In this document: piece after piece, positions 6,470 through 64,000 of the stretch | Layout of the letters: each line of letters opens with the position of its first letter | Numbering within the stretch: the first letter of the stretch is position 1 | Assembly (NCBI RefSeq): GCF_040807025.1 | Contig: NC_090943.1 | Coordinates: forward strand, 136,783,950 to 136,847,949 | DNA length: 64,000 nucleotides | Reading direction: 5' to 3' | Origin: Struthio camelus | Taxonomy: Eukaryota; Chordata; Aves; Struthioniformes; Struthionidae | The notes under the pieces: model-generated | The model's database searches: none | The model's input: only the letters and a program-made list of their open reading frames with translations | Told to the model about the DNA's origin: nothing | Translations under genes and position numbers: made by a program

Positions 6470-9405
<2,936 letters not shown>

Positions 9406-11560: not shown

Positions 11561-11564
11561 TATC

Positions 11565-12400
11565 TGCTTCCTCCTCCCCTCCTCCCCCCCCCCCCCCCAG
11601 CACCCTCTCAGCTACGGACACTTCTTCCTTTGGCTCTGACTGCTGGTGTTAGTTCACCCCTTTGCCGTTCATAACTCAACCGCCCCCCCCAACTCCCCCC
11701 CCCCCCGCGCTATTAAAAATAAATAAGCCGTGCGTCACGGCCGCACGCTGAGGGCGGGCCCGCGCTGGCCCGCGCCTTGCCGAGGCGCCGGCCGCGTTGC
11801 GCTGTGCGGCGGCGCCCCCTGCCGGGCGGAGGGAGGCGCCGCTCGGCGGCGGCGGCGGCAAACGGGGCCCGCGGCGCCGCTTCCCCCCCGCTCCTAGCAC
11901 ACACGCACTTCGGCCAATCAACGCCCGGCTCCCCCCGCTCAAATTCTCCCTCCGCCGCCCGTGCGGGGGCGTTTCCCGGGTTCCCGCGCGCGGCAAAGGT
12001 AGCGGCCGTTGGTGCCGCGCGCGCGGCGAGGTGGCGGTTGTTAGTGCCGCGAGGGGGCGGCTGGGGCGGCGCTCGCCTACCCGCCCGCCCGCCCGCCGCC
12101 CTGCCGCGTCTCGCTCCTGCCGCGGGGCGGCTCGAAACTCTTCACTGCGCCCTCCTCCGCGGGGCGCTGCCTCCCCCGCGCGGGTGCGCGGCCAGCCCCC
12201 GGAGCCGCCTTGCCAGGCTGACGGTGCTTCGGCTCGCTGAGGCCGGGTTGGGCCCGGTGCCCAAGTGCGGGCCGGGGCTGTGCCTGGCCGTAGGCCCAAG
12301 GGGCCGAGCTCCTGGCAGCTGGTGGTGTTCCACCTTTTGGGGAGTGGGGGCTACAGGCTGTGTCTCTGCCTCTTCCAGCTGGATGAGGAGGCTGCCTAGC
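11565..12400. promoter_or_regulatory. CpG island, probable kinesin promoter and non-coding exon 1
   Basis: A second island of dense CpG lies about 0.3 to 0.9 kb before the kinesin start codon. It contains an NF-Y type CCAAT box at 11,914-11,918 and no TATA box, the usual layout of cell-cycle gene promoters. Long C runs (11,583-11,598 and about 11,683-11,706) sit at its left edge. The non-coding first exon must lie here, but several GT dinucleotides could be its donor, so I do not place it. Long Arg/Pro/Ala-rich open frames here are composition artefacts. Confidence 0.7.
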
Positions 12401-12635
12401 TGAGAGGCAGTTAGTGTGCTTCAGCTGGTCTGTTTCTTAGTATATCCCAACTGTTGTTTGGTCTTGAAGGTTCCTTTATACTCTCAAACTTCTGATGAAG
12501 ATCTTATTTTCTTAAGAAGTATTTGTTTGCATACAGATTAACCTGATCCCTCTTTCAGCCTCTGTCTATTTTTGCTTGCTCTCTGGAAAAAAAACAATAT
12601 GGCTTTTTTTCTTACAAGTTCCTCACTGCAGAGCA

Positions 12636-12767
12636 ATGGATGATGAGGGGAAAAGCTATGTCTCTGCAGAAGTATCTGATATGTCGGAATCGGTTTCTTT
12701 TCTGGACTTCAGGGGTAAACCCTCACCTATGGAGTCAACAGTATTGGCTAATACAGAAGAGCAGGAG
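12636..12767 (+). CDS. Kinesin coding exon 1: N-terminus
   Basis: Residues 1-44, acidic and Ser-rich (starts [10 protein letters not shown], ends EEQE), as in the short N-terminal extension of KIF20A. The acceptor is either at 12618 (acaag) or 12631 (ctgcag); both leave this ATG as the first. Donor gtgtgg. Confidence 0.75.
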
Positions 12768-15326
12768 GTGTGGATGGCTTTTGAAATATGTCTTCTAACT
12801 CTGCCTTTTCTTTTTTTTAAATGTTGATTCTGGAAAATACATCTTCAGTAAGACCATCTCTTTTCCCTTGCCTCGATGATATGTTTGATTCTTCTGTTTA
12901 TTTCTCATTATTTACAAATAAATTACGTCCAGTAGCAAATGGTTAATACTGTTGTCTTAGGCTTTTGAGAAGGAGGTGAAGAATTTCAGTACTTGCACTT
13001 TTGGATGTATTGGAACCCCATTGTTCTGGTTAGCAAACTAAAAGGTTATAGGTTCTTGTTGAAAGCTATTAAATGCTTGGAAATAAAAATCTATAATACT
13101 GCATACTTCTTTTGGAAGACAATATAACTATTTCTGATTATAATTTAATTTTTTTTTTTTTCTTAGAATAGTAGGTTTCCTGACAGAGTTCCCTCAGGTG
13201 ACTTACTTTCTATGTTTAGTACAGTGATGGTCACTGCAGGGCTCTGGAGAACTCTGGTAAATCTATCTGCTAAATGAATAAGTTGCTGAAGCAGAGACAT
13301 CTGAGCTCTGAGAAAGGAAGGAATGTTGAGGCAGCTGTAAAAAATCTCCCACTTGTCACTGCCCCTAGATGGGGAGACCTTTGCGTAGTGGAAACAGGAC
13401 GGAAAAGCCTACCTTAGTAACCAGGAACCTTTCTGTGATTATTCCTGTGAGGAATGGGAGGGTTTAGTGACTGGATGGTAAAAATGAAGTAGTCTGAAGG
13501 TAAAAAGGTGTTGATCTATTAACTGAACATGCGCCATACAAAATGGAAGTACAGAACTGCAGAGCAGCTGTTAGAAAATACAGCTTGAATTCAGTGCACA
13601 CCGTGACCAGAAGGTGGAAGCAGTGCAGTTTAATCCTCCAATAACATGCTCTTTTTAAACCATAATGCTGGCGTGGTCAAACAAAAGAACCCTAATGGGA
13701 GGGGGACAGGATGGCTTGAATGAAAAACAGGTTACTTTAGGACACCAGGAGGCCAAGAAACAAATGGCAACTTGTAGTAGGAAGTTTACAAGGAAGAAGT
13801 GGAGGCAGTAAGATAGGAAATACTGTATCAGAGAGATGTATGCTGATAAACGATTTTAGGGATGTTCTATTTTAAAAGTGACAAATTAACACTTTTTTCT
13901 TTATGAGTAGGCATATCAACCTTTGAAAGTCTTCTTGAGAGTGAGGCCCTTTTCTGTAGCAGAGCTTGAAAACCATGAATCTCAGGTTAGTTGTAGAGTT
14001 AAGACAAGTTATTCTTCCCTGAAGAACTGCTTGTGTTGTAAGGTGGGATTTTCTTTTATAAAAAACATGTTTCCTTAATTTCCACATAGAATTAATGGAT
14101 GCCTGGGTAAATGTGACTTTATCAAAGCCTTTAGTATTTGCCAGTTGCACATACTCCTCCTACCTGTAGTTCTCTAAAACTCCACTGGTACCTCATTTAA
14201 AAATTGGTGTTGCTCTTGGCTCTGTGCAGTGGTCAGGTAACAAAGGAGTTTCATGCAGGAGATCATGCACTTCCAGGAGCAATTCAGGTTTTTGACCTTT
14301 GAGTTCCTTTGTAATGTCTGAATGGGTGAATGCCTCGTTCTGTCAATTTGTTCTATAACCTCCACAGTTTCTTCTGTGAGTTTGAGTGATGCCTTAATGT
14401 TTTGTGAACACACACACACTACCAGGTTTTTTTCCTCATTGTGAGCACCGATGTGAAGAATTTGTTCGGCTTTCCTTGGAGGACAAGTCCAGTGCAGCGT
14501 ATCTTCTGTCAGCTCTGATCATTGCTAGACCTCATAGGCTGCCTGATAGGCTTCTTATTGCTGACTCATTTGAAGAAGGGTTTAATATTGGTTCTGATCC
14601 TTTAGCTGACTTACGGCTTGAGGTTTGCTTGCTTCTTTTCTTATGAGTAGTTGTCATCTTGCATTTAATCTGCCAAAGTTGGAACCTTTCTATTTTCTTG
14701 ACTTGGATGCTTTTTCCAGAATCCGTTTACCTTTCCTCAAGCCTTTCTTGTTCAGCAGTATGGCCTGGCACAGTGTTTCCAGTATGGAGTCATTCAGCAA
14801 TTTGAGATGACTCTAAGGATAAACTGATCTATGAAATCAAATTGTTCTACAGGTTACCTCTTTTCCATTCCTCTCTGGAATGAGAAACTTCTGAATACTC
14901 TACCATTAATGAAATTACTTGTATGTTCTTAAAAGCAGGGGGGTGTGATGGGGGGGGGTAAATATTGCAATTTGTACTAAGTTTCTTAAAACTCTTGCCT
15001 TCGTGTTGTTCTTCATAAAATAGTTGATCTTCCAACATATCTGTATAAATTGATTTTGCACTGTATGAAGGCTTTCCTTCTCAGCCTCCAAAAACTCTGA
15101 ATCACTCTGCAAGATAATTCTCCAACATCGTATATGTTTTTCCATTACTGATGGTCTTAACTATCACCTGAATCCATAAGGAAGGTGCTTGGTAACAAAT
15201 AGAAAAACCTTCCCATCTCTGTAATGGAGAGATCAACTTAATTCTTTTGTTCTTTTTTTTCTCCCTGCCCTACCTAATTTTCAGGAAACCATCTTTCCTC
15301 CAAATATATGTAGCACATTAAAAAAA

Positions 15327-15369
<43 letters not shown>

Positions 15370-18300
15370 AAAAAACTTTGGTTGTAGACTGATGCTTTAA
15401 ATGGAAACATTCCACAAGTTGGAGTTCCATCTCATCTATTGTGCCTTACAGAGACAGTGACTTAAGCAAGAAAGGCCTAAGTGTCTAAGATGAAATTCTA
15501 TAGTCTATCTACAACTGCCAGTAGTACCCAGAGAGTATAAGGGGTTAGAGCATGGTACAGGTGGAGCAAATGTTTGGCCTGAGTTCAGTGCCCATTCTTA
15601 CAGCTTCTAAACTAGTTGATAAGCTGGCTTGTTAAATGAGACTGCTGGTAAAAGTGGTGCTTGTGGTGTACATGCTACACACAGATTATTAGTATTGCCA
15701 GCTTTGGCTAGCCTCTAAAATGTAAATGTCAGATTTAGCAGCAGTTAATAATCCTTGTAAGCTGTTTTAGTAGTTCAGGTTTTACTTCTGGTAGCCTGTC
15801 TGCTGTAAAAATCTGCTGTGGTACATGTTCTGCATTTGTCTAGTTAAGTGAATGCTAGGTAACTGCATCTAACATTTACTTAGTTAAGAAACAGTGATCA
15901 AATTAGACTTGAAACCAATTCAGGTCTGTTCATTACTGATGACACCATCTATCTGTCAAAGGATAACGCTTCAAATCTATTTTACTTTGTTTATGCTGTT
16001 CATAGCTTGTTTTTCACTGAAAATGGTTCATGTGGAAAACTAGTCAATTTCTATATAACTTTTTTTCCACAGGAGTTTATAGGGTACTGTAAGCTAGAAT
16101 CATAATATACTGGGGTTCGGAATGCGTGGAAAAAAACATTAAACCTTTTATAAAACTTCAGACAATAGCTTTAACTTTGCATTCGTTCTTGTGAAACGAG
16201 TGTCTCTAGTTGTTAGGCACCTCGAGAGAGATAATATTATGGATTTTGCCACTGTTAATAGCTCCAGTAAATGGATGAAAGCACTAATTTTTTTTCCAAG
16301 ATAACTTTCTTCCATAATGTAGTGTGATGTTTTGTTTTGCCTTTTTTTTAAGGGTTGTGTAACTATTGAAGATCCTCAGACAGTAACTCTTCATGCACCC
16401 AAAGAATCATCTGCAATGAAAAACAGTGAAAGAGGGATTGGCCGTTCTGTACACAGATTCACATTTTCTCAGGCAAATCTTTTTCTAATTTTTACTTAGA
16501 ATTTTTTTCTTTTACTGTAATGCTAAAAGTTGATGTCTTTCTGTTACATCATACAAATATGTTCTTTCATCTTTGGATTCTGTCTGGTACTTCTTGCCTA
16601 AAAAAAAATAAAAGGCAGACTGCTTATTATTTACTCTTAGGTTGCTAAGAAAGTTGCATTATAATAGAGATGCCGCTTATGAGACAAGGAAGCTTCTTTG
16701 AGAATTCTGATTTCTTTGATTAGATGCCACAGAAGCTTCTTGTAGGTGCAGGCTCACTGTAGTTCTGCTGTTTTTTGCATGTCCTCATCTGGGAGGTATT
16801 ACAGGAAACAGGATTTTAAAGGGATTTCTGTAAGCATGTGTTTATAGTGGCATAGTTTGTTATTGGAAGAACGGCAGCCTTAACTGGTTGTACCTCCTAT
16901 GTTGGAAGTAAGTTTTGCTTAATAATAAAAAAAATCTATCATCTATTACAAGAACTTCTGTTCTTCCATTATCAAAAGATAAATTGCTCCATGCTTAGTG
17001 AGTCATTTAGACCATTCTAACTGCCGATCTTCTCTTCAACTGTGGATGATTGTTACAGAGTTAAGAGCATAGCTCTTGAAAATATCCACTAAGAGGCATA
17101 TGTTCAACAGCATTTGAGCAGTTTATTTTAAGAGCAGGAAAATGTTCAAGAATAAGTGCAAGTCTGAGTGCATCTGAGAATTAAGCAGGCATGCTGTGAT
17201 AACCCAAAAGAAAACCCTGAATTAAAGGGGTTCAAGCAAGACAGAAAACTAAAATGGTATCTCCTGTTCAGCTTGTCCTGAAAAACTAGTCAGTATTATT
17301 CAATATTTAATGCTATAATAAATAGTAAACTTCTTAATTAAACTATTAATTTTCATAACTTCTTAACCATAGCTTCTTAAATAACCATAACTTCTTAAAC
17401 CATTTATCACTCCATTTTTTCTTTCCTCTGCTCTTTCCCTTTCTCCTCCAAGGTTTTTGGACCAGAAACTACTCAAAGTGAATTTTTTGAAGGCTCAATG
17501 AGAGAAATAGTAAGAGCATATGTTAATGGAGTAAATGGACTGGTATTTACCTATGGGGTTACAAATGCAGGCAAGACATTCACTATCCAAGGTATAAAAT
17601 ATTTGTCAGAAAGCATATAACAACTAAGTCAAAATCCATTGGGAGGTTTGTATCAATGTCTAAATTTTATGTTTTTATTGTAATTGTTAAGGGTCTTCAA
17701 AAGACTTTGGTATTTTGCCTCGCTCGCTTGATGTGATTTTTAACCACATAAAGGGAAGACAGTACCTGAAGATGAACTTTAAACCGTATTTGAGCAATGA
17801 TGTTAAGAAATTAGAAGATGCACAGGTTAAACAAGAAGAAGCCGTAAAAACTGCCATTCTTGCTTCGCTAAAAGAGGTCAGTGGCCCAATCTTATTGAAT
17901 GAAGCTTCTTAAGCACTTTAACTGTTGAAGAGGAAGTTTTTACGTTATCTTAATCTACAGTATGGATACTTTGTGAACGTTGAAAAATAAGGTAGCTTGC
18001 CACTTCTAGAGCTCAGAGTGAAGTGGAAGAACTTTCTGCAGCCATCAGCATGCAATTCAAAATAAAAAACATTGCACAGCCAAAGCCTGCATTTCCATAG
18101 AGGAGGAGTTCTGACACTGGGTCAACGCTAGGCCTTGAAGAGACTGAGAGAGCTGACCTATCTGCAATCTGGTTCTTGCTGTTGCCAGGGGAATCTTCTT
18201 TTGGATCAGTTCCTTAGGCTGGATCTCTAGGCAGCTGCTCAAAGTCTAGTTCTGGTTCAGTGGAGATGGTGACATCACTTTAGCAGAGGTAACAAAGAAG

Positions 18301-21300: not shown

Positions 21301-24300
21301 TCTTATTTTCTTAAGGATACAGAAAGCATCTTGACTACTATTACAAATATGTATAATCTGGAATCAGCTTCATCTATCAACTGTACTTTCAAAAATCTGC
21401 CTTCTGATTCACTAGGTAAAATAAAGTGGAAAATTCCAATGCAAATATGAATAGAAATTTTGGCATTTAAGAATAGAAGTGGATATCTCCAGTAGTGGAT
21501 TTAAAAACTGCTATACTGTACACAAAGTACAAAATATATTTTTTTAACCAAGCTTAAAATGGTTAAACTTGGGAGAGAGTAAGAATGTAAAAAGTATTTT
21601 GATAGCTTTGCACCTTTTAGAGGGAAGAAGAAAATTTAGCTCTGCAAAGCTAACGGACAAGCTGCTGAAAGCTTGTGCTAAGGGGAGGGAATGGCTAAGA
21701 ACTTGTGCATGTTCTGGTTACGGATGGCTGTTGAGAAATACAATCATAGGCGTTTGATCATTGAGCTCCTCTTCTCTTTTGGTTATCAGAAAAAAACTTT
21801 GTTCCGCTTGACGTGTGTAGGACTATACACCAAAGAACACAAGCATCAGTGTGGATTTCCTTTTATGAAATTTATAACGAATATGTGTATGACCTGTTAA
21901 ATGTGTTATCTACATCAAAAAATCAGAAACGCAGAGTCTTAAGAATTTGTGAGGATCAAGGAGGAAATTCGTACGTTAAAGGTAATACTATTTCATGACC
22001 TTTGCTGTTTCATAGAATTTTTACAGGTGATCAGAAGTGTCTGTAAAAGGTCTCTTTTCACAGACTTGAAGTGGATTAACATTCAGAGCACTGAAGAAGC
22101 CTGCAAAATACTAAAAATAGGAAACAAGAACCGAAGCTTTGCTTGTACTAGAATGAATGAGCAATCAAGTAGGAGGTTTGTTCTTCTAATTATAAGTATG
22201 CTCTCTCTTTTCTTTGCCGGGGGGGAAGGGAGGAAAAGATTTTAGAGCAACTCCTCAGTAATAGTTTAAGAACTTCCTTGATTATTCTGGTTTTGTTAAG
22301 AAACTTCCTTTCAGGAAGCAAAATAAGATGGGTGTGGAGAGACTAGACAACTTTAATAGTAGCTGAACTTCAGTTGCCATTAATAACTTTGTATGACTAA
22401 GAATGATCAAAACACATAGCCATTTTTGAGTGCCAACATGGCTACGGGTCTTGGCAAACACTAACGAAGCTGAGTGGACGTGGCTGTGCAAGGATGTAGA
22501 AAGAAAACCTGAATAACTCTTAATTACTCCTTTGGCAATGTAACTCTTAAAGACCTAAAGCCTGTCCACAGGGATGTGGGAAGGTGTGAGTCTTGCAGTA
22601 CCTCTAAGTGTTGCGAAGTTATCTAGATCCTGTTAGATTGCTGTACTGTAGCTGAGCTTTATTAGTATCTTAAGAGTGAAAGACTTGCCTTTGAGCACCT
22701 AGTTCTTATCCAGCTCTGGGAGAATCTCATTTGATGGTATGGGAGGAAATAAATGGAGAAGGTAGTCTACATTCTGCTGAAAACTCACTAATTTCTATAC
22801 CCTCTTACTAATTTGTCCTTTAATATGTGTGGAAAGGTCATGTTGTATGTTTAGCGAAGGACAATCACACTGTTAAGACTGCTTTTTCGCTAAAAAGCAG
22901 GAGTTGTGCTCTTCTGTATTAGCTATAGGCAGCTGCCATTAAATTTCATGTTATGCTTCCACCTGAATTTCACTCAAGCTTCAAGTATTGCAGAAAATAA
23001 TTCTGTGCTCCTCTGGTGGAGTTTTGTGCCTAGAACTTTCTACTTTTGCTTTGGAGAATACACTGACTTCCATTTAACTTGCTTCTAAACTGTGATGCTT
23101 TTATCAGCTTCACTCAACTCAGTTTGGCTTGGTGCTGACAGATAAAAGCCCTGCTTTAAATCTATACTAGAGAAGCTTGACTTCTCCAGTACGTGCTTAA
23201 TGATTTACTTGATAAACTAGGGACAAAGCACTTCTAGTTCTGGAATCTTCTCTTTGGTTTAGTATAGCATGTGTTCGTGCTTTTGTCTTTGGAGTTTGGC
23301 TAAAACAGTAATTATGGCTTTAAAGCCATATTACAAATGCAACCTGAAAAACTGGGAAAAATTTCAAAACTGAACATGTAACTGTGTGTAAGAACTAGGC
23401 AGAATTACAGCTTCCAGGCTTCATGTGATTTTTTTTTTCCTATACAAGAGAAGGAAAAAGTTGCAAAATATAACTTTTTTGGCTGCTAAATGGAATGCAC
23501 TGCAAAGGTAACTAAATTAGTGAACTCCTGTTATTTTTTCAGCAGTGAATTTTCTGTATCCTACAAACTTACTTTGTTTCAGTGATTGCTAGCTTTCATA
23601 ATTCTAGTTGTTAATAAGGACTTCTTTCCATTCCAGTCACAGTATATTTTCAATCAGGCTACTGAAGCTAACTGATGAGAATCAGCCACGTATTCTTGGA
23701 GTTTCAGAGTAAGTGAATGCTTCAGTTGATTAACAAAAGCTTAAATATTTTAGAAAAGTTGATAAGGCATGAGCATACTAAATTGGTGAACTTTCTTTCA
23801 ATAGACAATCCTTCTGAGAGCTGAGAAGGAAATCAGAACTGCACTGGTTACATAAAACTGATTGGAAACCTCATAGGGACAGGAGTAGAAGTGTTTCCCT
23901 ACTTTTTCTGTTCTATTAAGGTTTGGCTGAAGGAACGTTTTAAAACTCCATGTCAGTAATTCATCATTTGGGGTTAATAGATAATCAGGGGAGGATTTGG
24001 GACAATAGTGCTCTGCAATACCATGCTATTCGGTTAAGTAGAAGTCAAATGGCTATCTGATAGAAGCTGATCTCTGAAGTCAGAGTGCAGCAGCTAGTGC
24101 TGAAGATCCTGTGTGGATGCTATGCCAGTGCTGAGAATATCTTCGTACTTTGGGTCTATACTACAGTTAAGTTTATGGTTTGAGTGTTTAACTGGAGCAT
24201 GTTTAATATGCTCCTGGAACACAATTTCCAGTGTGTCTTAATCAAAAATATGATCTGAGGCCGCTTGGTGGTGCGATCTACAGCACTGTAAAAAGGGATC

Positions 24301-26910: not shown

Positions 26911-26946
<36 letters not shown>

Positions 26947-29900
26947 GACTGGGCACTTTCAGATATGACTGTTTATACCATATTTCAGCAAATGTAAAAT
27001 CTCAGCTCAAGCTTTGACTTAATTGGTGTGCACTAAATATCTGTTATATGAGGTGAGTTGTTCAAAACTTCTTGGACAATAGCACTGATGCTAAAAGAGG
27101 TAGCCTTTTTTCTTATTCTGCAGTCTAAACAAGATCTCTTGTTCCTGCATTGCTCTTACTTGGCCAAGTGTAAGTTACTGATACCAACCAAAAATAAAAC
27201 ATTTTATGTAAGTTAAAGCTTGAAGGTAGTGTGCTCCTCTGCTTTAGAACTTTCTTAAGCAAAAAGACTGCTAATTCTAAATTACTCTGTGCTTTCTGCT
27301 AGCTCTGCTTGCCAGTCTCCCCTTAAATTCAGGACTTCAGAGTGATGTTTGATCTTAACCTTTTTTGGTGTCTCTGGAAGCTGCTACTTCCTCGACCCTT
27401 GAAAGAGCTAACTTTGGGAGTAGGATGGTGGGTTATGTTGTGCTCCATGCCAAAAAGTCCATTTCTAATCTGGAACTGTGGATTAGCTCTTATACTTTCC
27501 AAGTCTGTAATGGCATGCCTAATATGATCTCAGACATAAAGATTTTTCCAATTATGTTTAGCTGCAACTTCCATCATAAAAGAACACGCAATGAGGACAC
27601 AAGCTTCTCTGACTTTTCCTGTAACAAACTTACTATCTTTACTTATTAAGGTGACTTGCTGGATCCTCATCACAGTATTTCAGGAAGGAGCAAATGTCTT
27701 AAGAACTTCCTCGCCGTTTTTGACTGACCTTCCAGGAAACTACACCAAAAACTGACATGTTTTTAGTGGGGAGAGAGAGCAGCTTTCTAGACAACCATGT
27801 TAAGTCTGTCAGTATATAGTCCTTCTATTTACCATGCTGTTAGAGTATGTTAGTGTTATAGCTCTATATTGAAACTGATAGATTTTTCTGTCTGCTAAAA
27901 AATGTTGTGTTAAAATTCTTGTAATCCTTAAATGAAGTGTAAATACAACTGTGCACTCACACCACTTCTTCGTAGTATTCCTGTGCCTGCAGTATTGACA
28001 GCATTCATAAGTCCATGTGTTCAACTCTGGTTTGTTATGTTTTTTTATTTATTTTTCAGGTAATCCAGACGATCCTACCCAAAAGTTTTGGTTACTTCCC
28101 CCCCAAGCTAGTTGGAAGTGATGGCAAACCTATCATAAACTTTGATGTTAACACATCTGTAGACGATTTTCCTGATGGCACTGAAATCTCCGTGGAAGAG
28201 GAAGTGGACATCACCATTCTGAGTCATGAGGTAGATATACGTCTACCCAAAATTGTGCACAGGAAAGCCATTGGTATTAGCTCTAGTATTAGAAACTTCT
28301 GCTATGAACATGTGCTAGCAGCTCTCCCAGATGATAACTGTAAACTTCTACTCGTTGTCGAATAAACCTAGACTTAGCAGTCTCGCTCTGCAGGAGCGAA
28401 TGTAATTGTGGAAGGCCTTTTTCAGCTTGTAGTTGCATCAAGTGCTAAAACCTGAATTCACACTGATAGCTCAACATGAACTGTAAGGAAGCAGTAAGTC
28501 TGTTTAAGGCACGTTGCCTAGTTACCCACACTCTGGGAACCTCAGGACAAGTATTAAAGTAAGCCGTGTTTTTTTAAAAACAAAGCTATACAATCTAATG
28601 GTAATAAACTGTAAAAATCAAGTAGGCTTCGTGCTAAATGGTTGTACAAATTAATATTTAAATGCCAAAAATACACCAAATTAATAGTAACATTTTTGAT
28701 AGCAGAAACCATCAAGATGGAAAAAGGTTGTCTTTGCAGTAGAAGAAACTCAAGTTTGACAGTACTTAACCCTTTACCCCCACCTTGAAAATACGAGTTT
28801 GTAGAAATGGCCTCTGACTGCCTGTATTAACAGATTAATCTATTAATTTGGCATTCATATTGAGACTTCTTTCTGGCTTGTTTTGTGAAGTGAAATATTT
28901 TAAATTCAGGATCTTTTGAAAACTACTGAGAACCTAAAGGAAAAGCTAGCTGCAGAAAGGCAAAGTAAGCTTCTTCTGGAGGTGAAGATACGTAGAGAGA
29001 TGGCAGAAGCAATGTTCCGACAGCTGCTGGAAACAGAGGAAGCCTGGAGGTAATTCAGATGGCAATCCTATGCAAGACTGGAAAGATTGCACGTTTATAT
29101 AAGTGTCTGTATGATATGTGCACTCATGCTATTTGGAGAAGTTAAGGCTGACCAGTTTTGAAGCTTCTGATGAAAAGGGAAGGAACACTAAAATAAAATA
29201 TTTTTACAGATAAGTCTCTTCCTATGTACAATAAAAACAGTAATGCTACTTTGTATTGAACTTTATTCTATCGTTAATTTGAAATTACTGGAGGTTCTCC
29301 TGATTCTTTCTTGTTGTTAGTATCTAGCAGATGCAAAAGGCTATGGGTACCTCTCTGAGGCTTGTAATTATTCTAAAACATGCACTTGGTCATGTAAATA
29401 TATGTGCATGTGCTTCAGGTAGGTAGGTTGAATTGCATATCTTTGAACTATCATGCTGGCTTCTTACTCCTGAATGGCTTAAGAACCATTGTTTTATTGC
29501 ATAGATTGCTGTGGCTGCCTGCATTGGTGTTACTAACTTGGGGATTTTTATCAAGTATATCCAGATTGCTCCAACTGAATTCATTTCCTCTTAACTTTTC
29601 TCTTTCTAAAAATCAACTTCCTGTTTGAATTGCTGAACAGAGATTAACCCAAAGTTAAATTGCAGACTGAATGACCATCATTTAACACTTGCCCTGAGTC
29701 TAAAATTGTTTGTGTATGTCTTTGGTCAAAGACACCTGAAACTACCAGTGACACTTCTCTGTTGGGGTAATGTTCTGTGTCTATACTGGGGAGACTTTAT
29801 TAATCATAATAAAGTGTAATTAATGTGTATGTTCTCTAACTTGAAACAATGAGGCAAGGTGAATTTTGCATTTATCAAAACAGCTACACTTCAAATATTA

Positions 29901-32900
29901 GGTATAATCAAGTGTGGTCATATCTACCATTACATGTTGGTGGATTTTTTTAATAAAACTTCATTTCACAGATCTTCCCCAAGACATCATCCAAATCCCG
30001 TAGCTTAAAATGATATCATTCAGACTTTAACAGTCCTGACAACACCAGAATCATCCAGGAGCTAGATAGATGCAAACACTTAAGTGCTATTAGTATACTA
30101 ACAATTTAAAGTGTAACAGGAGATTTACGTGCTTCAACTGAAATTGAAGGAAGGACTGCACTTACAAAACTCACACTGAAATTTGAGTGCAACCTTGCTC
30201 AAAAGTGAGGAAATTATTGGAGGTTTAGTTGAGTGTTTGGGATTCTAACTGGTTGTAGTTCCTGGAGGGATTTCTTAGCTTTTGTGTGACAAAGGGTTTG
30301 TGGCTCTTGTGTAGGCAAATTAGTCATAAGAGGAGTTGAGATGCTCTGCTGTCATTAAGTGCCAGATTCCCACTTATTTGGGTGCTTGCATCCCAATGCC
30401 ATAAACTTGATACTGAGTATTTTTGCGGCTGTAAAATGGCAATATTAAGTTCACTGTCACTGAGAATTCATCAGCTTGATTTGTGAAGTGCTTGAACTAT
30501 GTAGCATGTCAGGCCCTGTAAGTACCAAAGACATTTTGACTTTAATCAAAGTTGGCCATTACTACTGTGACCTTACATCACTTGTTTAGAAGCTCAGTTT
30601 GTACTGAGATCTGTAGCTGCACTTGGCCAGTAAATTTCTGTTGTCACACCAAAGAGATGAAAGGATCAGCATAACAAATAAGACTGAGTTCAAGGATTAA
30701 ATACGTGTTCTTCTATATACGTTGTCTCGGTATATGCAAATGGAAGTAATGTCTCGGTGCAGTTCCACAGGATCCTTGAGAACAGAAAGGAGGTAGAAGT
30801 ACTCCTTGGTCTCTTAATTTCACTGCCAGTGATTAGGTCTGATAACTTTGATATTGCCAGGAGGATGTATGTTGTCAAACTTAACAGCTGGAATGCTAAT
30901 ATAGTAAATAAAACTAACATGTCCTCCTCAGCAACCGCTTGGAAGATGTGAAAGACAGTTATGAAGAAAAACTGGAGAGCAAATTTGAAATGTATAAAGA
31001 AGCCATCAAGAAACATGCATATATGTGTGCAGTGGAACAGATTGAAGATCATTATGTTCCCATAGAAGAATTTCTAGCTGAGCAAGGGAAAGTTGAGGTA
31101 TGACTTGACTACTGCTAAAAACTGTGTCCTAAATGTTAGCCTCTTAACTCTAAACAGTGCTTTTCCCTAACAGCATTATTCAGGAATCCTAAATGTAACA
31201 CTAAACAGTCAAAATCATTGTAGCAGTTCAGCCTAGTTATTCAGGTATCTGTTGCTAGGGATGATATATGCAGCGACTTAGCTTTGTGGAGATCCTTGGA
31301 GTTGTAAGGTATGGAGTAAAAAATTTAAGGGTTGGTGGGGAATTGAGTAGAAGGGTAGCTATTTTAATTACAGTGGGCATCTGATCGGAAGATCTAGAGG
31401 GAAGACACTGGGAAAGAAACTGATGGGAAATCAAACTTTATGCAGTTTAAACTCCTGAATATACTCACACCTAGAACTGCTCAGTGGTCATGGTCGGTAA
31501 GTTGCTACTCCTTTTGCAGGGCGTAAGGAAGTGTATGTACCACCTCAGAACTGCGTGCATATGCTTCTTTAATGATAAGTACCCATAAATGAAAAATATC
31601 TATCTGGAAATATCTGGGAATTACACACTTTTTTCTTTTGAAGTTGTGTAGATGAAGTTAATGGGCACTTAGGCAAAAGCTGATACTAGATCATTATTGT
31701 CAACTACATGTAATGGAAAGGATTTAAGCCTAAGCCAGGGTATTAAACGACGCTTTGGTTTTACTAGTCACAAGCCAAAGTAACATTCTTATGGTTAAAA
31801 CATCCACCCTCACTTTTGCAGAATGATGAAAACGTGTTGTAAATGCCTACTTAACCTTTCTCTTTGGTCTGTCAAACTTGTGTCTAGACTTAAAACAAGT
31901 ATAGAATTCTCTTCTGATGGTCGTCTTCTAAACAACTGTAGTGCTATTCAGTGGTACAAGATTTTTGTGAAATCCTTGCGCTCTCTAGTTCACATAATGT
32001 ATCTTGTGGCATCAGATGGTTAGATAGTTTTGTGTTTTTCCCTTTGTCTAGTAGCCACTAAGTGCAAGTGCTCTGTGTACATGACAGACCAAGCTCTCTT
32101 CTGAAGAGCGGTTCTTGTGGTCACACCTCTTATCCTCAGCTGCCGCACTCACAAAAGGGCAGAGTAGCTTCAAAGGCCACTTAGGTCTTCCTGTTGCCTA
32201 TTGCTGGGAAGCAATGTCTGTGTAACTATTCCAAGACTGAGATGTGCCACAGAACTGCAGCAAGACTTGAATTATTTTTGCAATGAATCCTTTGCAGTCT
32301 TCTGCATCTACTTTAGGCCTTTGTGTAAGAGATTCTCATCCTGCTGTAGGTAACTACTCCAAATAGCAGGGTTCAGGGTTTCCATAGGGTCTACTTTTGT
32401 GGGGTCTGAGTGACTTCTGAGAGACTCCGACTGTACACAAAGCTAAATTCTAACTTTCTATAGATTGGAGCTTAATGTACCGTATCACATCAGTGGTAAG
32501 GAAATGACTGCCACTGAGATTTTTTTACCTTTTTGCTCTGTAAACATCTATGTGAAATTAAGTCCATAAGGAAAACACTGCTCCCAGACCATGCTAACTG
32601 GGACAGCATTATATTTCAAATCAGTGAGAATATGCTTCCTTCAGCAATGAGTCCAGGTGAGAATAGCTTCAGTTACACTTCAGAAAGTTGGTGAAAACAT
32701 ACTGTGAAATCCTGAGCCACGTTAGCCATATGTCTAGCCTCTGGATGGATGGCTGACTGATCCAGGGAGCAGATGATAGACTTGTGGGTCTTAATCTATT
32801 CAGAAGCTCTGTAATGGGAGAAAAGAATAATAACGGCATACACTAGAGTTGCTTTTTCATTGCTCTCCTGCCTAGGCACTGATCATGGGTGTCTTACCCC

Positions 32901-35900
32901 ACTCATAGGCAGCGTCCTTTAAAGTTATGAGGGAAGTGTTTTTTTTCTTGTAGATAGTGAAATATACACACTTCTGCTTTTACAGCTCTCCATTCAGGTG
33001 GTTGACACACAATGCTGTATTGTGTAATGGGCTCTGTTCTTCCTGTTCATCTCCACTTGTCTTTTATGGCAAGTTTTATGTGTGTTTGCATGTACATTGC
33101 TATACGATTTAAGTGGTCATGTACTTAATCTTCCATCAAAACATTCACCAGATCATCCCCTAAGGAGGTCTCTAACAGTTGTGTGTGGTGTGTATGGTGT
33201 TTTTTTAATGCTGCTTTGAATCATTCCTCTGACTTCTGTTGGATGACTCTTCAGCAGTGGACCTCTTCTCTCTGCATAAGATAAGCAGAACAGTAGCAGT
33301 CCATCCAACAAGTCTGATCACTGCAGGGGAAGGAGGGATCTTGGCCTTTATGATTAATCTCTGATAAATTACTTCTGAAAAGTAAGAGATCACTTGTAAG
33401 TCTTATCCTAATCCTAATTCCTTTTTACAACAAATCTGGATCTCATGATCAGAAACATTTTGCTAAGCCATATTACGTTGTAGGTAAATCAAGATTTCCC
33501 TTTCAACACAGGGGACGGTGTTATTTCTTCATTTAGAGCATAATCTTTTGGATCTTAGTCCAGTGTAGCTAATAACTTGATTGCCCTCTAAGTCAATTTG
33601 CAGAAAATGATTCAGACATCCATCTGAGAGCTGGCTGTGAGCTTTTGTATTTTTTGTTGAGGGTTATTTGTGGTTATTTGGTGGTTTTTTGTTTGTTTTA
33701 GAAGTAAACTGAGATAAGTTGGGCTGCCACCAGAAGGCAGACTTAGCACATGCTTGTTATTTGTTAGGTCAGGCTGGCAGATAGATATTCTACTTGGCCA
33801 TCTCCTTTAAATGAGGCTGCTCTTTCTTCCTGTTCAGAATGCGATTTAGGGGAGAATAAAAACACTTGGTTTCTAGTACAGGTAATTGATCTTGCCCACT
33901 TAAACTCCACTTTTATGTTCACTTGAGCCACAATTATATGTAGTTTAGTGTTTGTTTAAAAAAAGATTTATATTTTAATAGTATTGTCTAGTTACATAGC
34001 TGCCTCTTAGGCAGCCTTGCAGCCAATAAGATTCAAGTAGGATGGTGTTGGTAGCAGATCGGACAAGGAACTGATGAAACGGTTAAGATGTAAAATTCTG
34101 AATTGAAGGAGAAAACTAAGTGGGCAGCTTCAGAGAATCGGAATTTGAGTAACTTTTCTTGGTGATGAGACTTGTTCCGTTGTGATCTCTCTCTCTCATA
34201 TCATGCTAGCAATCTGGTGGGTACCAAACAGCAACGAAGAGATTAATGTTCAGCTCAGTAGGATGTATTCTTCCTTTACCAAGCTAACTGGCAGTGGTGT
34301 TTAATACAGACGAACTAAAGTTTCCTTTCTGCGTTATGGTTGCTTTTCAAACAATTAGAAAATCTTCAGGCTGGAGAAACTGATTCCTGTGTGAAGATAC
34401 TTCCTCCAAGAAGAAGGCCTCATGATCTGAATGGCATTCTTTACTGTGATTTCTCAACCATAACTGTCGCAATTTTCACTTGAAATTATTTAAAAATTGC
34501 ATATACATGTAAATGCATATAATTGAAGGATGTGCAGTGGTGCAGTCAAATTAAGGAGACACTTCAGGTAAATTCTACCATGTCCTCCTCTCTTTTCAGG
34601 AGAGGGAGAATAAAATAATGCAATTGGAAAGGCAACTTGATGAACAGTCAGGGAGACCGGCTCTGGAAAGTCCAAGTTCAGATACACCGACTGCAGAAAA
34701 TGACATGGAACTAGGTAGGAATCTAATCTGGATATACTTTATTAGCTTTTTGTACTGTGTGTAAACAAAACCTTTTCTGTTGCCTGTAGATCTTCTAAAC
34801 AAGAAGATGAAGAGAGCCAATGAAGGATTGCAGGAACAATGCAAAGAGAAGGAAGAGGTAGCTTTTGCTTAATATTTAATAAATCTGGGGATAGCGGTCC
34901 TAACCTCTTGAATGGTTTCAATGTTTGAAGATCTGTACTGCAGAGAAAAGCATGAAAATTCCTGCATCAGGTTTACAGAAGAGCTCTTGCCCAGCAGTTT
35001 TATCAAGAGATTGGCTATGTTCTGGCTTTTCTTGAGTTTATGAAGGCAGATACTACAATAGCTAGTCGCATGGTGAATATAGTGGCAGTTGGAAGAAGGG
35101 GGATATCTGGCCTTTTATTGTAATGTGTTGTTGCTTTTATGGCCTCAGTGCTTTCTTCCTGAAATGCTGCCTGCTTAGACATGGGGGAACAGGATGGCAG
35201 TTAAAGAATCTGGTAACAATTTAGATGTAGAGCCAGAATAGTGCCTTAAATCTGTCCTTGCTGTTAGTGCTGAACTCCATACCCCTCCCCCCCCCAACTT
35301 AAATTCCAGTAATAGATAACTTCTGTCCTTTAAACAAACAAGATCCCTATGTTCTGCATGGTATGTGGAGGTGGAAATCATGGCCTTCAGAATGCTGTGG
35401 AGAACTAAATATTAATCATTTTTAGGTATGCGTTTTTTTCTACACCTTGAACAAACTTACTGTAAGGCTGTAGTTAGTTTCTCATGTTGAAAGGGTGGGG
35501 ATGAGGGAAGAGACTTGAGCCTTGCTCCCTTCACTTCCCAGAGTAATTCCTAATAAAAAATAGGAGTAGGTGTTGGAGAAAGAGTTCCAGCTGGTTCTAA
35601 TAAAGCATATAAATGGAAAGTGAACTTAAATCCTCTTCTATTGAAAAAGTGTACTCCAAAAATAACTTTTTCCTTACCAGATTTAATGTCTTGTTTTATG
35701 GCCCTGGCATTTGTTTTCTACTCATGTTCTCCAGAGCTCTACAACAACTTCTAGTTCCTGTGTCAATTTCAAATTCTGATGCTAGAAAGCAAGTTTGGCT
35801 TTCATGCTTGATATGCGAGTTCAATATTGATTGTTTTGTGTGTCTAGAAAATGTGAGAGTGATGGGGTTGCTGCCTGGCAGTAACTGAAGTGAGAGCAAT

Positions 35901-38168
35901 TTAAAGCAGTTACGCTGTTAGTGCCACTCTGCTGCTTTGCCTCACAATATCCAAGCATATGTGATGAGTGATTTGCTGCTTTTTGTCCTTCCCTCCCACT
36001 CCCAGCTATTAAATGTGGGCAGAGGTTTTCTTTAGCTATCTAGGTATTTCCCTCCAACTATATAGAGTTAATGATCTTGCTGGTTCTGGATTTCTTTTCC
36101 CTCTTGAGTTAATCCAGCAGTATTAAAAGCCATCTTGCCATCAGAAAGGTAAGGCTCTGTGTGGAACTTAATTATGACAGAAGACATGAATAGTGTTAAT
36201 GAGAAGAGACCACAGTCTTAACTACCCTTACTGAAAAGGAGCAGACTGTTCCAGGAGTAGCTTAGTCTGTATTAGTGTTTTTTGTGGTTGATATATGTCT
36301 GTACAAATCCAATAGCTTCAGCACAGTGGCCCTTCAGTGCACCATGACGTTTTTGACCAGAAGCGATGGATTGGGGCACAGGGGTTAGAGAAGCAGATTT
36401 CATCTCTGTTGCATTGGTCTTAATTTGCTCTGTTCAAAACTAATCACTTAGAAATGCTTATACTGTCTTTGAGTTTTAATTATAAACAAAATTCATACAA
36501 AACATATCTTCAACTTGCAAGGGTTTTATTTTCAGCTTGTAAAATCTCTGAAGCTTAAAATACAGAAACTAAACGAAACCCTGCTAGAAGCTAATGAAGG
36601 CTACAGAAAAATGGCAGAAGAGAACAGTAGACTGAAACATACAATCATGCTTAAGGTTGGTCAACTATTTAAAAGAAACTTTAATACAGCTTGTGTATAG
36701 ACAATGTCAGATGTTTCTACATCCTTTTCTATGTAAAAACACTGTTCATTCTTATTCCTTGCTTTTAACATGAGCATAATATTTTTGAGTTTTTTTTTGC
36801 TTTCTTTCGTTCCATCCCTAACTTAAACTGAATCAGATTTCACAACCCTTGTGTTTCACTCCTCGACTTTCTTTTAAAAGACAAAGTCTGCCTTTTGATT
36901 TAAGGAATAGACTTGGTGAATTAATTACTTGGTGCTGTAAACTCTTGCTAATCTAAAGATGCCACAATGTGCTGTCAGGCACAGAAAATACTGTTCAGAA
37001 CTCTTCTAGAATTTCCTCAAATCATGAAGTGCTCTACTAAGGCCTAGCAAGCAGTTAGTACACAAGTTAGCACAACAATACCTAAGGTTCTTTGGCTTTA
37101 AAGCTATGCTGGCATTCTTGCAGAGGTGGCCAAGCTGAGTAAGAGCTATGGGCAGGTAAACCACTTAATACTGAAATGGAAGAACTCCCCCCCTTCAAAA
37201 GTAGAGGCTTTGTAAAGGTGAATGCATCTGACCTTGGGCATCAACTGAACTCCTAAATAAACACTGAAAACTTTGAACTCTTGAAATCTTGTATGTATGC
37301 CTCGTTTGTAATCTGCAAATGAAACAAGGTGGGTATAATACTGCAGAGCATTCTCTGAGCATTAAATTACTTTCTGCATGCTTTAGCTCAAGTCTGAGAC
37401 TGAAAAGCATTCATCCTGAACTTTCTAAGTCTTGGAACAAATTAAAGAAAATGAAGTTTTTTTCTTAATCACAAGGTTTAGAGAGTCTTTTTAAAAAGAT
37501 CATGCCCATTTTAAGCATTTATTCAGTCCTTGTTAGTAGAATTACAGCTATTATAAGAGTTTTGATTTGACCAATTTTGCTTTCAGTAATTAGTTTGCAG
37601 TTTAAGACAGGAAGGCGATCTTTATTTAGTTCCTAGAATAACTGAAGCTCTTTGCATGGGATGCCTAAGCATTATGGTGTCAGCTGCTGCAGTCAGACTC
37701 TGATCTCCAACTAGATCTGATGTCCCATTAGTTTGCTGTATTCCAAATTCCATAAGTAATTCAGGGCACCGAATAGCCATTTGGAGTAGTGATAACGGAG
37801 GTATTTACTAGAATAATAAAATCTTTTGGAACAAAAAATCAGCTTTATAGAGAAGACTAGCATTCACGTACCTAACAGTCTTATCCTCATAGGATCAAGA
37901 AATGAGTAATCTTCAGAACTGGGCCAAACGTGTTCTTGAGCTTGAAGAAACAGTGTCTTCCCTGCAAAAAGAACTTGATGAACGCAAAAAGCATTTGTGT
38001 GTAGAAGATCCAAAACAACAAAAACCGAAGAGAGGTTTGTTAGCTAACCTGAAATCCACAGTAGCAGGCACTTCTGGTATGCCTCTTGGTAAAGGCTGGG
38101 GGAAGTGTGAAGACTTGTCAAGCTCTTCAAGAAAGCAAATGCCATTGGTTCATAAAGTAAAAGAATAG
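12636..38168 (+). CDS. Kinesin-6 family motor, KIF20A-like, complete coding region (831 residues, 18 coding exons)
   Basis: A plus-end-directed microtubule motor by family; KIF20A acts in the central spindle and cytokinesis, while the role of this copy is inferred only. Exons: 12636-12767, 13911-13985, 16353-16472, 17453-17591, 17692-17876, 21316-21415, 21790-21981, 22064-22175, 23637-23708, 25727-25873, 26510-26675, 28060-28230, 28910-29049, 30932-31097, 34600-34714, 34790-34857, 36536-36655, 37893-38168; all phases agree and there is no internal stop. The motor spans about 48-480: FLRVRP 52-57, P-loop GVTNAGKT 144-151, switch I NEQSSRSH 346-353, switch II DLAGSE 381-386. The long stretch between the P-loop and [10 protein letters not shown] (272-281) contains the large loop-6 insertion typical of kinesin-6. 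Residues 540-780 are Glu/Lys-rich coiled coil; the tail is basic. Human KIF20A is 890 residues. ATG 12636 has a good context (G at -3, G at +4). KIF20A ortholog or paralog is unresolved. Confidence 0.9.
13911..13985 (+). CDS. Kinesin coding exon 2: first motor strand
   Basis: Residues 45-69, beginning [14 protein letters not shown], the first beta strand with the RVRP motif that opens every kinesin motor domain. Acceptor gagtag, donor gttagt, phase 0 on both sides. Confidence 0.9.
14050..15150 (-). pseudogene. Unrecognised decayed coding-like segment, antisense in a kinesin intron
   Basis: Read on the - strand, three frames in turn give protein-like stretches: near 15,020-15,145 ([18 protein letters not shown]), 14,458-14,640 ([18 protein letters not shown], later [18 protein letters not shown]) and 14,185-14,345 ([20 protein letters not shown]). 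They are separated by frameshifts and by stops, including a TGA at 14,529-14,531 of the kind a CGA codon gives by C-to-T change. The pattern is what an old processed pseudogene would look like, but I do not recognise the parent and cannot exclude chance. The + strand of 14,404-14,646 also carries an 80-codon open frame with no known motif. Confidence 0.3.
15329..15364. repeat. (AC)18 microsatellite
   Basis: Thirty-six bases of perfect AC dinucleotide followed by an A-rich run, in the kinesin intron between coding exons 2 and 3. A likely polymorphic length marker. Confidence 0.97.
16353..16472 (+). CDS. Kinesin coding exon 3, ending at a GC donor
   Basis: Residues 70-109 (GCVTIEDPQ through RFTFSQ), matching the ERGIG...HRFTFSQ stretch of KIF20A. 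The exon must end at CAG 16470-16472 because the next exon resumes with VFGPE; the intron therefore begins gcaaat, a GC donor, not GT. Confidence 0.9.
17453..17591 (+). CDS. Kinesin coding exon 4: P-loop
   Basis: Residues 110-155 plus one base. Contains [16 protein letters not shown], the Walker A nucleotide-binding loop with the catalytic Lys150 and Thr151. Acceptor tccaag, donor gtataa. Confidence 0.95.
17692..17876 (+). CDS. Kinesin coding exon 5
   Basis: Residues 156 (shared) to 217. Starts [19 protein letters not shown], parallel to GGILPRSL in KIF20A, then enters the Lys/Glu-rich kinesin-6 insertion. Acceptor gttaag, donor gtcagt. Confidence 0.92.
17877..21315 (+). other. Kinesin intron 5, no extra feature recognised
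   Basis: 3.4 kb of AT-rich intron with T and G homopolymer runs near 19,748-19,812. Open frames up to 74 codons have no motif. No RNA gene or classified repeat seen. Confidence 0.5.
21316..21415 (+). CDS. Kinesin coding exon 6: loop-6 insertion
   Basis: Residues 218-250, [20 protein letters not shown] and on: a poorly conserved linker within the family-specific insertion. Called from flanking splice sites (ttaag, gtaaaa) and exact phase continuity rather than from similarity. Confidence 0.8.
21790..21981 (+). CDS. Kinesin coding exon 7
   Basis: Residues 251-314. Contains [18 protein letters not shown], the conserved FEIYNE segment of kinesins, and [12 protein letters not shown]. Acceptor tatcag, donor gtaata. 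Confidence 0.95.
22064..22175 (+). CDS. Kinesin coding exon 8: start of switch I
   Basis: Residues 315-351, starting DLKWINIQ and ending MNEQSSR. The preceding intron is only 82 bases. A nearer acceptor (tttacag, 22026) would add a stop codon, so 22064 is the functional start. Confidence 0.94.
23637..23708 (+). CDS. Kinesin coding exon 9: end of switch I
   Basis: Completes NEQSSRSH across the splice junction, then [16 protein letters not shown] and on. Acceptor ttccag, donor gtaagt. Confidence 0.93.
24854..24951. repeat. 29-bp perfect inverted repeat, long hairpin in a kinesin intron
   Basis: Arm 24,854-24,882 is exactly the reverse complement of 24,923-24,951, with a 40-base AT-rich spacer that can itself extend the stem by partial pairing. 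It lies in the intron between coding exons 9 and 10. The flanks (gagat and tacat) show no target-site duplication, so a transposon with terminal repeats is not supported. It could be a hairpin RNA precursor or the product of a template-switch mutation. Confidence 0.9.
25727..25873 (+). CDS. Kinesin coding exon 10: switch II
   Basis: Residues 376-424, [14 protein letters not shown] then [19 protein letters not shown], the switch II loop and helix that carry the microtubule-binding surface. Acceptor atgcag, donor gtaagt. Confidence 0.96.
26510..26675 (+). CDS. Kinesin coding exon 11: end of motor core
   Basis: Residues 425-480. Contains [23 protein letters not shown] and [18 protein letters not shown], the last conserved blocks of the motor. 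Acceptor tataag, donor gtaaga. Confidence 0.96.
26916..26944 (+). repeat. A29 homopolymer in a kinesin intron
   Basis: Twenty-nine consecutive A in the intron after the last motor exon. No retroposon body is recognisable upstream. Confidence 0.9.
28060..28230 (+). CDS. Kinesin coding exon 12: neck region
   Basis: Residues 481-537, [16 protein letters not shown] and on to [13 protein letters not shown], an acidic stretch like the DDDIENEADIS segment of KIF20A. Donor gtagat. The frame stays open past the donor to a stop at 28363-28365. Confidence 0.9.
28910..29049 (+). CDS. Kinesin coding exon 13: coiled coil
   Basis: Residues 538-583. Heptad-like [20 protein letters not shown] followed by [15 protein letters not shown], parallel to the ERQEKLQLEMHLRDEI segment of KIF20A. 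Acceptor attcag, donor gtaatt. Confidence 0.92.
29050..30931 (+). other. Kinesin intron 13, nothing recognised
   Basis: AT-rich intronic DNA with no motif-bearing frame. The - strand frame at 30,690-31,052 overlaps coding exon 14 and is its antisense shadow. Confidence 0.5.
30932..31097 (+). CDS. Kinesin coding exon 14: coiled coil
   Basis: Residues 584-639, [20 protein letters not shown] and on, a helical Glu/Lys-rich stretch. Acceptor cctcag, donor gtatga. Confidence 0.9.
31098..34599 (+). other. Kinesin intron 14, nothing recognised
   Basis: 3.5 kb intron. Open frames of up to 66 codons have no motif; no RNA gene or classified repeat seen. Confidence 0.5.
34600..34714 (+). CDS. Kinesin coding exon 15
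   Basis: Residues 640-677. Short helix [16 protein letters not shown] followed by a Ser/Pro/Thr-rich linker ([14 protein letters not shown]). Acceptor tttcag, donor gtagga. Confidence 0.88.
34790..34857 (+). CDS. Kinesin coding exon 16
   Basis: Residues 678-700, [20 protein letters not shown] and on, coiled coil. The shortest exon but one besides exon 2 (68 bases); acceptor ctgtag, donor gtagct. Confidence 0.85.
34858..36535 (+). other. Kinesin intron 16, nothing recognised
   Basis: 1.7 kb intron. A + strand frame of 91 codons (35,613-35,888) and its antisense partner lack motifs and splice logic. Confidence 0.5.
36536..36655 (+). CDS. Kinesin coding exon 17
   Basis: Residues 701-740, [20 protein letters not shown] and on, coiled coil with regular Leu spacing. 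Acceptor tttcag, donor gttggt. Confidence 0.88.
37893..38168 (+). CDS. Kinesin coding exon 18: tail and stop
   Basis: Residues 741-831. A last coiled-coil stretch ([20 protein letters not shown]) is followed by a basic, Ser-rich tail ([17 protein letters not shown] onward) and TAG at 38166-38168. The tail is loosely like the basic KPFLRNLLPRTP region of KIF20A. Confidence 0.9.
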   Translation, partial: DQEMSNLQNWAKRVLELEETVSSLQKELDERKKHLCVEDPKQQKPKRGLLANLKSTVAGTSGMPLGKGWGKCEDLSSSSRKQMPLVHKVKE

Positions 38169-38800
38169 TATTTGATTGAAGCGTGCAACTGCTGGGCCTC
38201 TTCAACATTCTTTAACTGTTGGTAGCTTTGCATCTACTTTCAGAGTGAGAAAATCTTCACTGTCATGGTAACTGATAGAGGAAAAAATACTTAATACAAA
38301 AGTTTAGATCAAATCAGGGTAGAATTTACAGAACTCTACAAGTATAGACCTAAACTTGGGTTTTTAACAATTGGTATGGGGATATGATTTGTTTTTTTAG
38401 TCTTGAGTAACTGCTATCATGGACTTCTGCATTGATAAACATGCAATTTATGTGAAGGGGGATGTTCCTCTCTTGCTGCTCACTACCTTTTTATGTTAAT
38501 ACTTCATTTCTGTTGGTTTCCTAGAATCAGATGGCTTGTAAGCTTTACCTCAGGCAGTTAAAATAAGTTGCTGCTTTAGTAGTAATCTTTGACTTGAAAA
38601 TTGCCATCTTGGGATCAAACTGAGCAAATTCTTAAAAGTAATATGTCAAAAGGAGGCAACATAAAGCATGTCTTGTGGCTTTTTTAGCTCACTTAGCTTT
38701 GTACAGGCAGTTGTTTTAATATTGTTTGAAGTTTTACTAAGAATGTGCATGAAACTTTAAAAATCTATTTATAATAAAATTTTCAATTTCTAGATTATGC
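38169..38800 (+). terminator. Kinesin 3' UTR with AATAAA at 38773-38778
   Basis: About 0.6 kb of AT-rich DNA follows the stop, ending in AATAAA and a T-rich stretch. No other consensus signal is closer to the stop. Confidence 0.75.

Positions 38801-40234: not shown

Positions 40235-64000
<23,766 letters not shown>

Follow-up and report, generated by a model that had tools for sequence, protein, structure and literature searches.

A likely third KIF20 paralog between RPS20 and LYN in Struthio camelus, apparently lost from mammals

Gene content of the RPS20-LYN interval

The window, by which we mean the whole 64,000 nt stretch of Struthio camelus DNA that was analysed (C2:136783950-136847949, C2 being its contig), carries RPS20 upstream on the forward strand, LYN downstream on the reverse strand, and a kinesin gene between them (Table 1). 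The exons of the kinesin gene were re-derived from the sequence letters, without any prior exon list, and joined into a CDS of 2496 nt (window positions 12636-38168, forward strand) that encodes 831 residues plus a stop codon and stays in frame across 18 coding exons. An initial reading of the letters alone (hereafter the sequence-only reading) had placed a kinesin between RPS20 and LYN, with 18 exons, 831 residues and intact nucleotide-binding motifs, and all of this was reproduced by the independent derivation. The gene span it had proposed, 11700-38790, also agrees with the CpG island found at the start and the AATAAA found at the end. Two patterns for CR1-type tails, which would have hinted at bird DNA, had no match.

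Table 1. Features of the window, with positions counted from its first nucleotide
Feature	Position	Strand	Basis
RPS20, residues 2-119, three exons	7871..9357	+	best PDB matches 40S S20
snoU54, within RPS20 intron	8547..8612		
CpG island, where the kinesin promoter and a 5′ non-coding exon probably lie	11501..12500	.	GC 0.66-0.69, CpG observed/expected 0.8-1.06
Coding exon 1, start codon	12636..12767	+	re-derived exon join
Coding exon 2, motor start, RVRP	13911..13985	+	exon join; most of exon also from KIF20A-guided spliced alignment
Coding exon 3, then GC donor	16353..16472	+	exon join and KIF20A-guided spliced alignment
Coding exon 4, P-loop GVTNAGKT	17453..17591	+	exon join and KIF20A-guided spliced alignment; motif check
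Coding exon 5	17692..17876	+	exon join and KIF20A-guided spliced alignment
Coding exon 6, uncertain, in a variable loop; 18662-18782 as alternative	21316..21415	+	exon join; spliced alignment picked the alternative
Coding exon 7	21790..21981	+	exon join and KIF20A-guided spliced alignment
Coding exon 8, switch I up to NEQSSR	22064..22175	+	exon join and KIF20A-guided spliced alignment
Coding exon 9, SHSIF	23637..23708	+	exon join and KIF20A-guided spliced alignment
Coding exon 10, switch II DLAGSE	25727..25873	+	exon join and KIF20A-guided spliced alignment
Coding exon 11, motor end	26510..26675	+	exon join and KIF20A-guided spliced alignment
Coding exon 12, neck linker, long and acidic	28060..28230	+	exon join, PDB match, KIF20A-guided spliced alignment
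Coding exon 13, stalk start	28910..29049	+	exon join; upstream intron at same column as KIF20A intron 12
Coding exon 14, stalk	30932..31097	+	exon join
Coding exon 15, stalk	34600..34714	+	exon join
Coding exon 16, stalk	34790..34857	+	exon join
Coding exon 17, stalk	36536..36655	+	exon join
Coding exon 18, stop codon after the basic tail	37893..38168	+	exon join
AATAAA, likely poly-A signal of the kinesin	38773..38778	+	sequence
LYN, second half; small first model pieces 60358-63058 doubtful	41615..63058	-	one exon against PDB, best match Lyn

The encoded protein has a complete kinesin motor, with RVRP (residue 54), the P-loop GVTNAGKT (144), switch I NEQSSRSH (346) and switch II DLAGSE (381) all intact, and it covers positions 1-327 of the 327 in the Pfam Kinesin profile (PF00225, E 7.5e-94), placing it in the kinesin superfamily. 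A second Pfam match is to a microtubule-binding domain. In kinesin-6 proteins the neck linker that joins motor to stalk is exceptionally long, and the protein shares this trait: its linker of about 57 residues (483-539) is acidic (pI 4.05) and aligns loosely to that of KIF20A. The tail (residues 761-831) is basic, with a pI of 9.75.

Sixteen of the 17 introns have GT-AG boundaries, the remaining one being GC-AG (intron 3, donor after 16472); this donor reads CAG/gcaaat (16473-16478), and the KIF20A paralog has GT there. The exons were cross-checked with a home-made spliced aligner whose sole guide was the KIF20A sequence from the PDB, and exons 3-5 and 7-12, together with most of exon 2 and the start of exon 13, were recovered. 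For exon 6, which encodes a poorly conserved loop, the aligner chose 18662-18782, also in frame, instead of 21316-21415, so that some 33-40 residues of the variable loop are uncertain. The alternative has a good acceptor and could be a mutually exclusive exon.

Kinesin-6 genes in the same genome

When the full protein was compared with 177,635 distinct PDB sequences, and as ranked from the best 60 of 139 matches, the top chains were three KIF20A sequences (484-490 bits), which we take to be mouse, followed by 5x3e, a ‘Kinesin-like protein’ that is presumably Caenorhabditis elegans ZEN-4 (180 bits), and then by KIF3B (163 bits). Within those best 60 matches, motor likeness thus makes the protein a kinesin-6, closest to KIF20A and then to 5x3e. 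The KIF20A match extends beyond the motor, through the neck linker, to residue 544, with 52% identity over motor and linker.

Residues 44-583 were used as a query against the whole genome (1,451,902,618 bases in 262 contigs) and gave 47 matches, comprising the gene's own exons on C2, multi-exon KIF20-type genes on contigs C13 and C7, and weaker kinesins that include KIF23 on C12. The KIF20A on C13, modelled on an 890-residue human guide, has 18 exons and 867 residues without stops, and reaches residue 857 of that guide. On C7, 506 residues of the KIF20B motor were modelled, two guides giving different loop regions, and on C12, 458 residues of the KIF23 motor; both genes were named by their identity to the human sequences, 64.3% and 87.8%, respectively.

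A BRD8-like gene (12 exons, 547 residues) adjoins the KIF20A of C13 in head-to-head orientation, and human KIF20A likewise lies beside BRD8. PDB searches with pieces of this gene returned nothing relevant and a Pfam search with one ORF there had no match, so its identity depends on the human guide sequence with which it was found. The sequence-only reading had associated a separate KIF20A with both BRD8 and CDC23; the KIF20A and its BRD8-like neighbour are present on C13, but CDC23 was not recognised by eye among the ORFs of at least 45 residues on one strand of the stretch that was inspected.

In the motor domain, the RPS20-LYN kinesin is 55.1% identical to KIF20A of its own genome, 55.5% to the PDB KIF20A, 53.0% to its own KIF20B, 38.4% to its own KIF23 and 36% to ZEN-4. 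For comparison, the C13 KIF20A is 74.3% identical to the PDB KIF20A and 51.1% identical to KIF20B of the same genome. The protein resembles KIF20A (MKLP2) in its motor, acidic neck linker and number of coding exons, and the two proteins are also alignable in the stalk and in a basic stretch near the C terminus (12 residues against QPPGKKPFLHNL). It differs in its locus, in its 55% motor identity and in the lengths of individual exons: exons 6, 15, 16 and 17 are shorter, and exon 14 is longer. By the tree tests given below, it is not the one-to-one ortholog of KIF20A. KIF23 (MKLP1, ZEN-4) likewise has a kinesin-6 motor, but with the low identities given above and with none of its 12 introns in common with the RPS20-LYN kinesin, which is therefore not a KIF23.

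Relationships, age and mode of origin

Four tree runs were made, with 9, 6, 5 and 8 rows; each has few rows, drawn on one genome, and long-branch warnings attach to ZEN-4 in the 9- and 6-row runs and to KIF23 in the 5-row tree. The KIF20 clade was separated from KIF23 (and ZEN-4) with support of 100/100 in the 9-, 6- and 8-row trees, the 5-row tree having a single outgroup row, and this support, together with the common intron positions, puts the RPS20-LYN kinesin within the KIF20A/KIF20B clade. Its place inside that clade is less firmly fixed: three of the four best trees set it outside KIF20A plus KIF20B (92/88, 73/77 and 75/82), and approximately unbiased (AU) tests did not reject it as the sister of KIF20A (p 0.18, 0.18, 0.30 and 0.22).

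Our data are best accommodated by a reading that we regard as likely: the gene is an intact and constrained third KIF20 paralog that arose by DNA-level duplication before birds and mammals split, was kept between RPS20 and LYN, and was apparently lost in mammals. The strongest competing explanation pairs it with KIF20B to the exclusion of KIF20A, as a KIF20B-like gene with a short tail. The AU test did not reject a union with KIF20B (p 0.08, 0.26 and 0.22), the 5-row tree joins the two (62/62; the pair of own and PDB KIF20A itself reaches just 74/68 in that tree), and VFGPETTQ and EFFEG are common to the protein and its own KIF20B. However, the other three best trees do not join them; where KIF20A and KIF20B differ, the kinesin is KIF20A-like at 59 sites, KIF20B-like at 45 and like neither at 90; and KIF20A, the one protein with which that comparison was made, is alignable to it in both stalk and tail. 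The KIF20B (MPP1) stalk is longer, with four coiled coils according to passages of one paper (PMC5374676), whereas the RPS20-LYN kinesin stops at 831 residues. On balance we hold a sister relationship to KIF20B to be plausible but unlikely.

Much less probable still, and in our judgement very unlikely, is a young and fast-evolving duplicate of KIF20A in the host lineage. Such an origin would agree with the intron phases, which are equal in the RPS20-LYN kinesin and its own KIF20A at all 17 positions, in order, and fall in the same alignment column at 13 of them; but KIF20B, too, matches it in column and phase at nine of the 11 introns in its model. A duplicate younger than the bird-mammal split should favour the KIF20A of its own genome, and this is not what was seen: at the 103 gap-free sites that split the two KIF20As, the kinesin agreed with its own copy at 23, with the PDB sequence at 23 and with neither at 57, and realignment gave 23/23/58 of 104 and 23/23/57 of 103. 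The AU test rejected a union with its own KIF20A in all four runs (p 0.00107, 0.0015, 0.00105 and 0.0008 with 9, 6, 5 and 8 rows). Nor is fast evolution evident, since none of eight relative-rate comparisons, six of which include the RPS20-LYN kinesin, was significant (lowest p 0.077); against its own KIF20A the count was 32 versus 36 of 395 sites (p 0.72). In the 9-row tree the terminal branch of the kinesin measures 0.28, less than the distance that separates KIF20A or KIF20B from the fork at which it arises, a shortness that the relative-rate counts, with no significant difference, did not confirm.

A decaying or silent copy is extremely unlikely: the GC donor of intron 3 and the weak donor of exon 1 would fit decay, but 831 open codons, intact motifs, a CpG island and the lack of any rise in rate speak against it, as does the naming of KIF20AL in chicken transcript data. 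We give practically no credence to a relocated, sole KIF20A ortholog, which the equal exon number and KIF20A as best solved relative (among the best 60 of 139 matches) might have suggested, but which is refuted by the second KIF20A, beside the BRD8-like gene on C13. The sequence-only reading had recognised that a moved ortholog would undo its claim of a paralog; as another KIF20A exists and the RPS20-LYN kinesin does not group with it, the paralog reading survives. No relatives, such as host contamination might have left, were confirmed in scans of viral and prokaryote contig collections.

Together, the even site sharing and the AU rejections place the split from KIF20A before the separation of birds and mammals. 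As judged from these protein comparisons, the RPS20-LYN kinesin is thus a third KIF20 lineage older than that separation, and we infer any greater age with more reserve.

As for the mode of origin, the matching introns argue for duplication at the DNA level within the KIF20 group, and the presence of 17 introns rules out a retrocopy. Whole-genome duplication found no support from REEP and FAM53, which we take to be neighbour families of KIF20A, although this is a thin test: REEP matches (PF03134, at least 8) fell on C13, C7 and other contigs and FAM53 matches (PF15242, at least 3) on C4 and C7, with none of either on C2. FAM53 matches were absent from C13, the KIF20A contig; human FAM53C, we assume, lies close to KIF20A. 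Separately, contigs C40 and C41 carry kinesin and REEP matches with identical scores, offset by about 19.5 and 19.1 Mb. The Z and W chromosomes of ratites retain a long shared region, and these two long, collinear contigs are perhaps Z and W, or else two haplotypes.

Mammals, chicken and a proposed function

Published statements are consistent with loss of the gene from mammals. Three kinesin-6 motors are counted in mouse (PMC5374676), and in part of a cattle gene table RPS20, snoU54 and LYN are consecutive, with no gene between them (PMC3683327). By these published statements, mammals apparently lost the RPS20-LYN kinesin. The sequence-only reading had offered loss from the mammalian locus or gain in this lineage; the old paralog is borne out by the site sharing and the AU tests, a gain in the lineage is not, and apparent loss in mammals draws on these published statements.

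In chicken, one study lists KIF20AL with LYN, RPS20, MOS, PLAG1 and PENK as candidate genes for one chromosome 2 SNP (GRCg6a; PMC12193209). From its locus and name, and with the caution that this gene list is alphabetical, we infer that KIF20AL adjoins LYN and RPS20 and is the ortholog of the RPS20-LYN kinesin. The expectation that the gene would add a member to the family was right in substance, although the name KIF20AL already exists in the chicken annotation. As far as our searches show, the gene is apparently undescribed: no description of it was found in the open-licence literature, and the available passages of a paper on KIF20A in hen liver mention no paralog (PMC8100479).

By analogy with other KIF20 proteins, the RPS20-LYN kinesin would move slowly towards microtubule plus ends, have a long neck linker and form dimers through its coiled-coil stalk. 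In such a model, it would cross-link, bundle and slide the antiparallel microtubules of the anaphase midzone, and its basic tail may hold cargo or a second microtubule. A bolder proposal, which we consider speculative and rather improbable, is that this ‘KIF20C’ is the founding vertebrate kinesin-6, which branched before KIF20A and KIF20B split, is, by branch length, the least changed of the three, and serves germ-line division (meiotic division and the incomplete cytokinesis of spermatocytes) in egg-laying vertebrates; mammals would have dropped it, leaving a reduced set of KIF20A, KIF20B and KIF23. If birds did keep an ancient fourth kinesin-6 under ordinary constraint while mammals no longer have it, studies of mammalian KIF20A and KIF20B describe a reduced system, and in chicken cells the paralog may mask the effects of losing KIF20A. 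A possible role in the male germ line is hinted at by a single chicken study of testis, in which KIF20AL is among the genes up in the testis of the L-TES group (PMC12193209).
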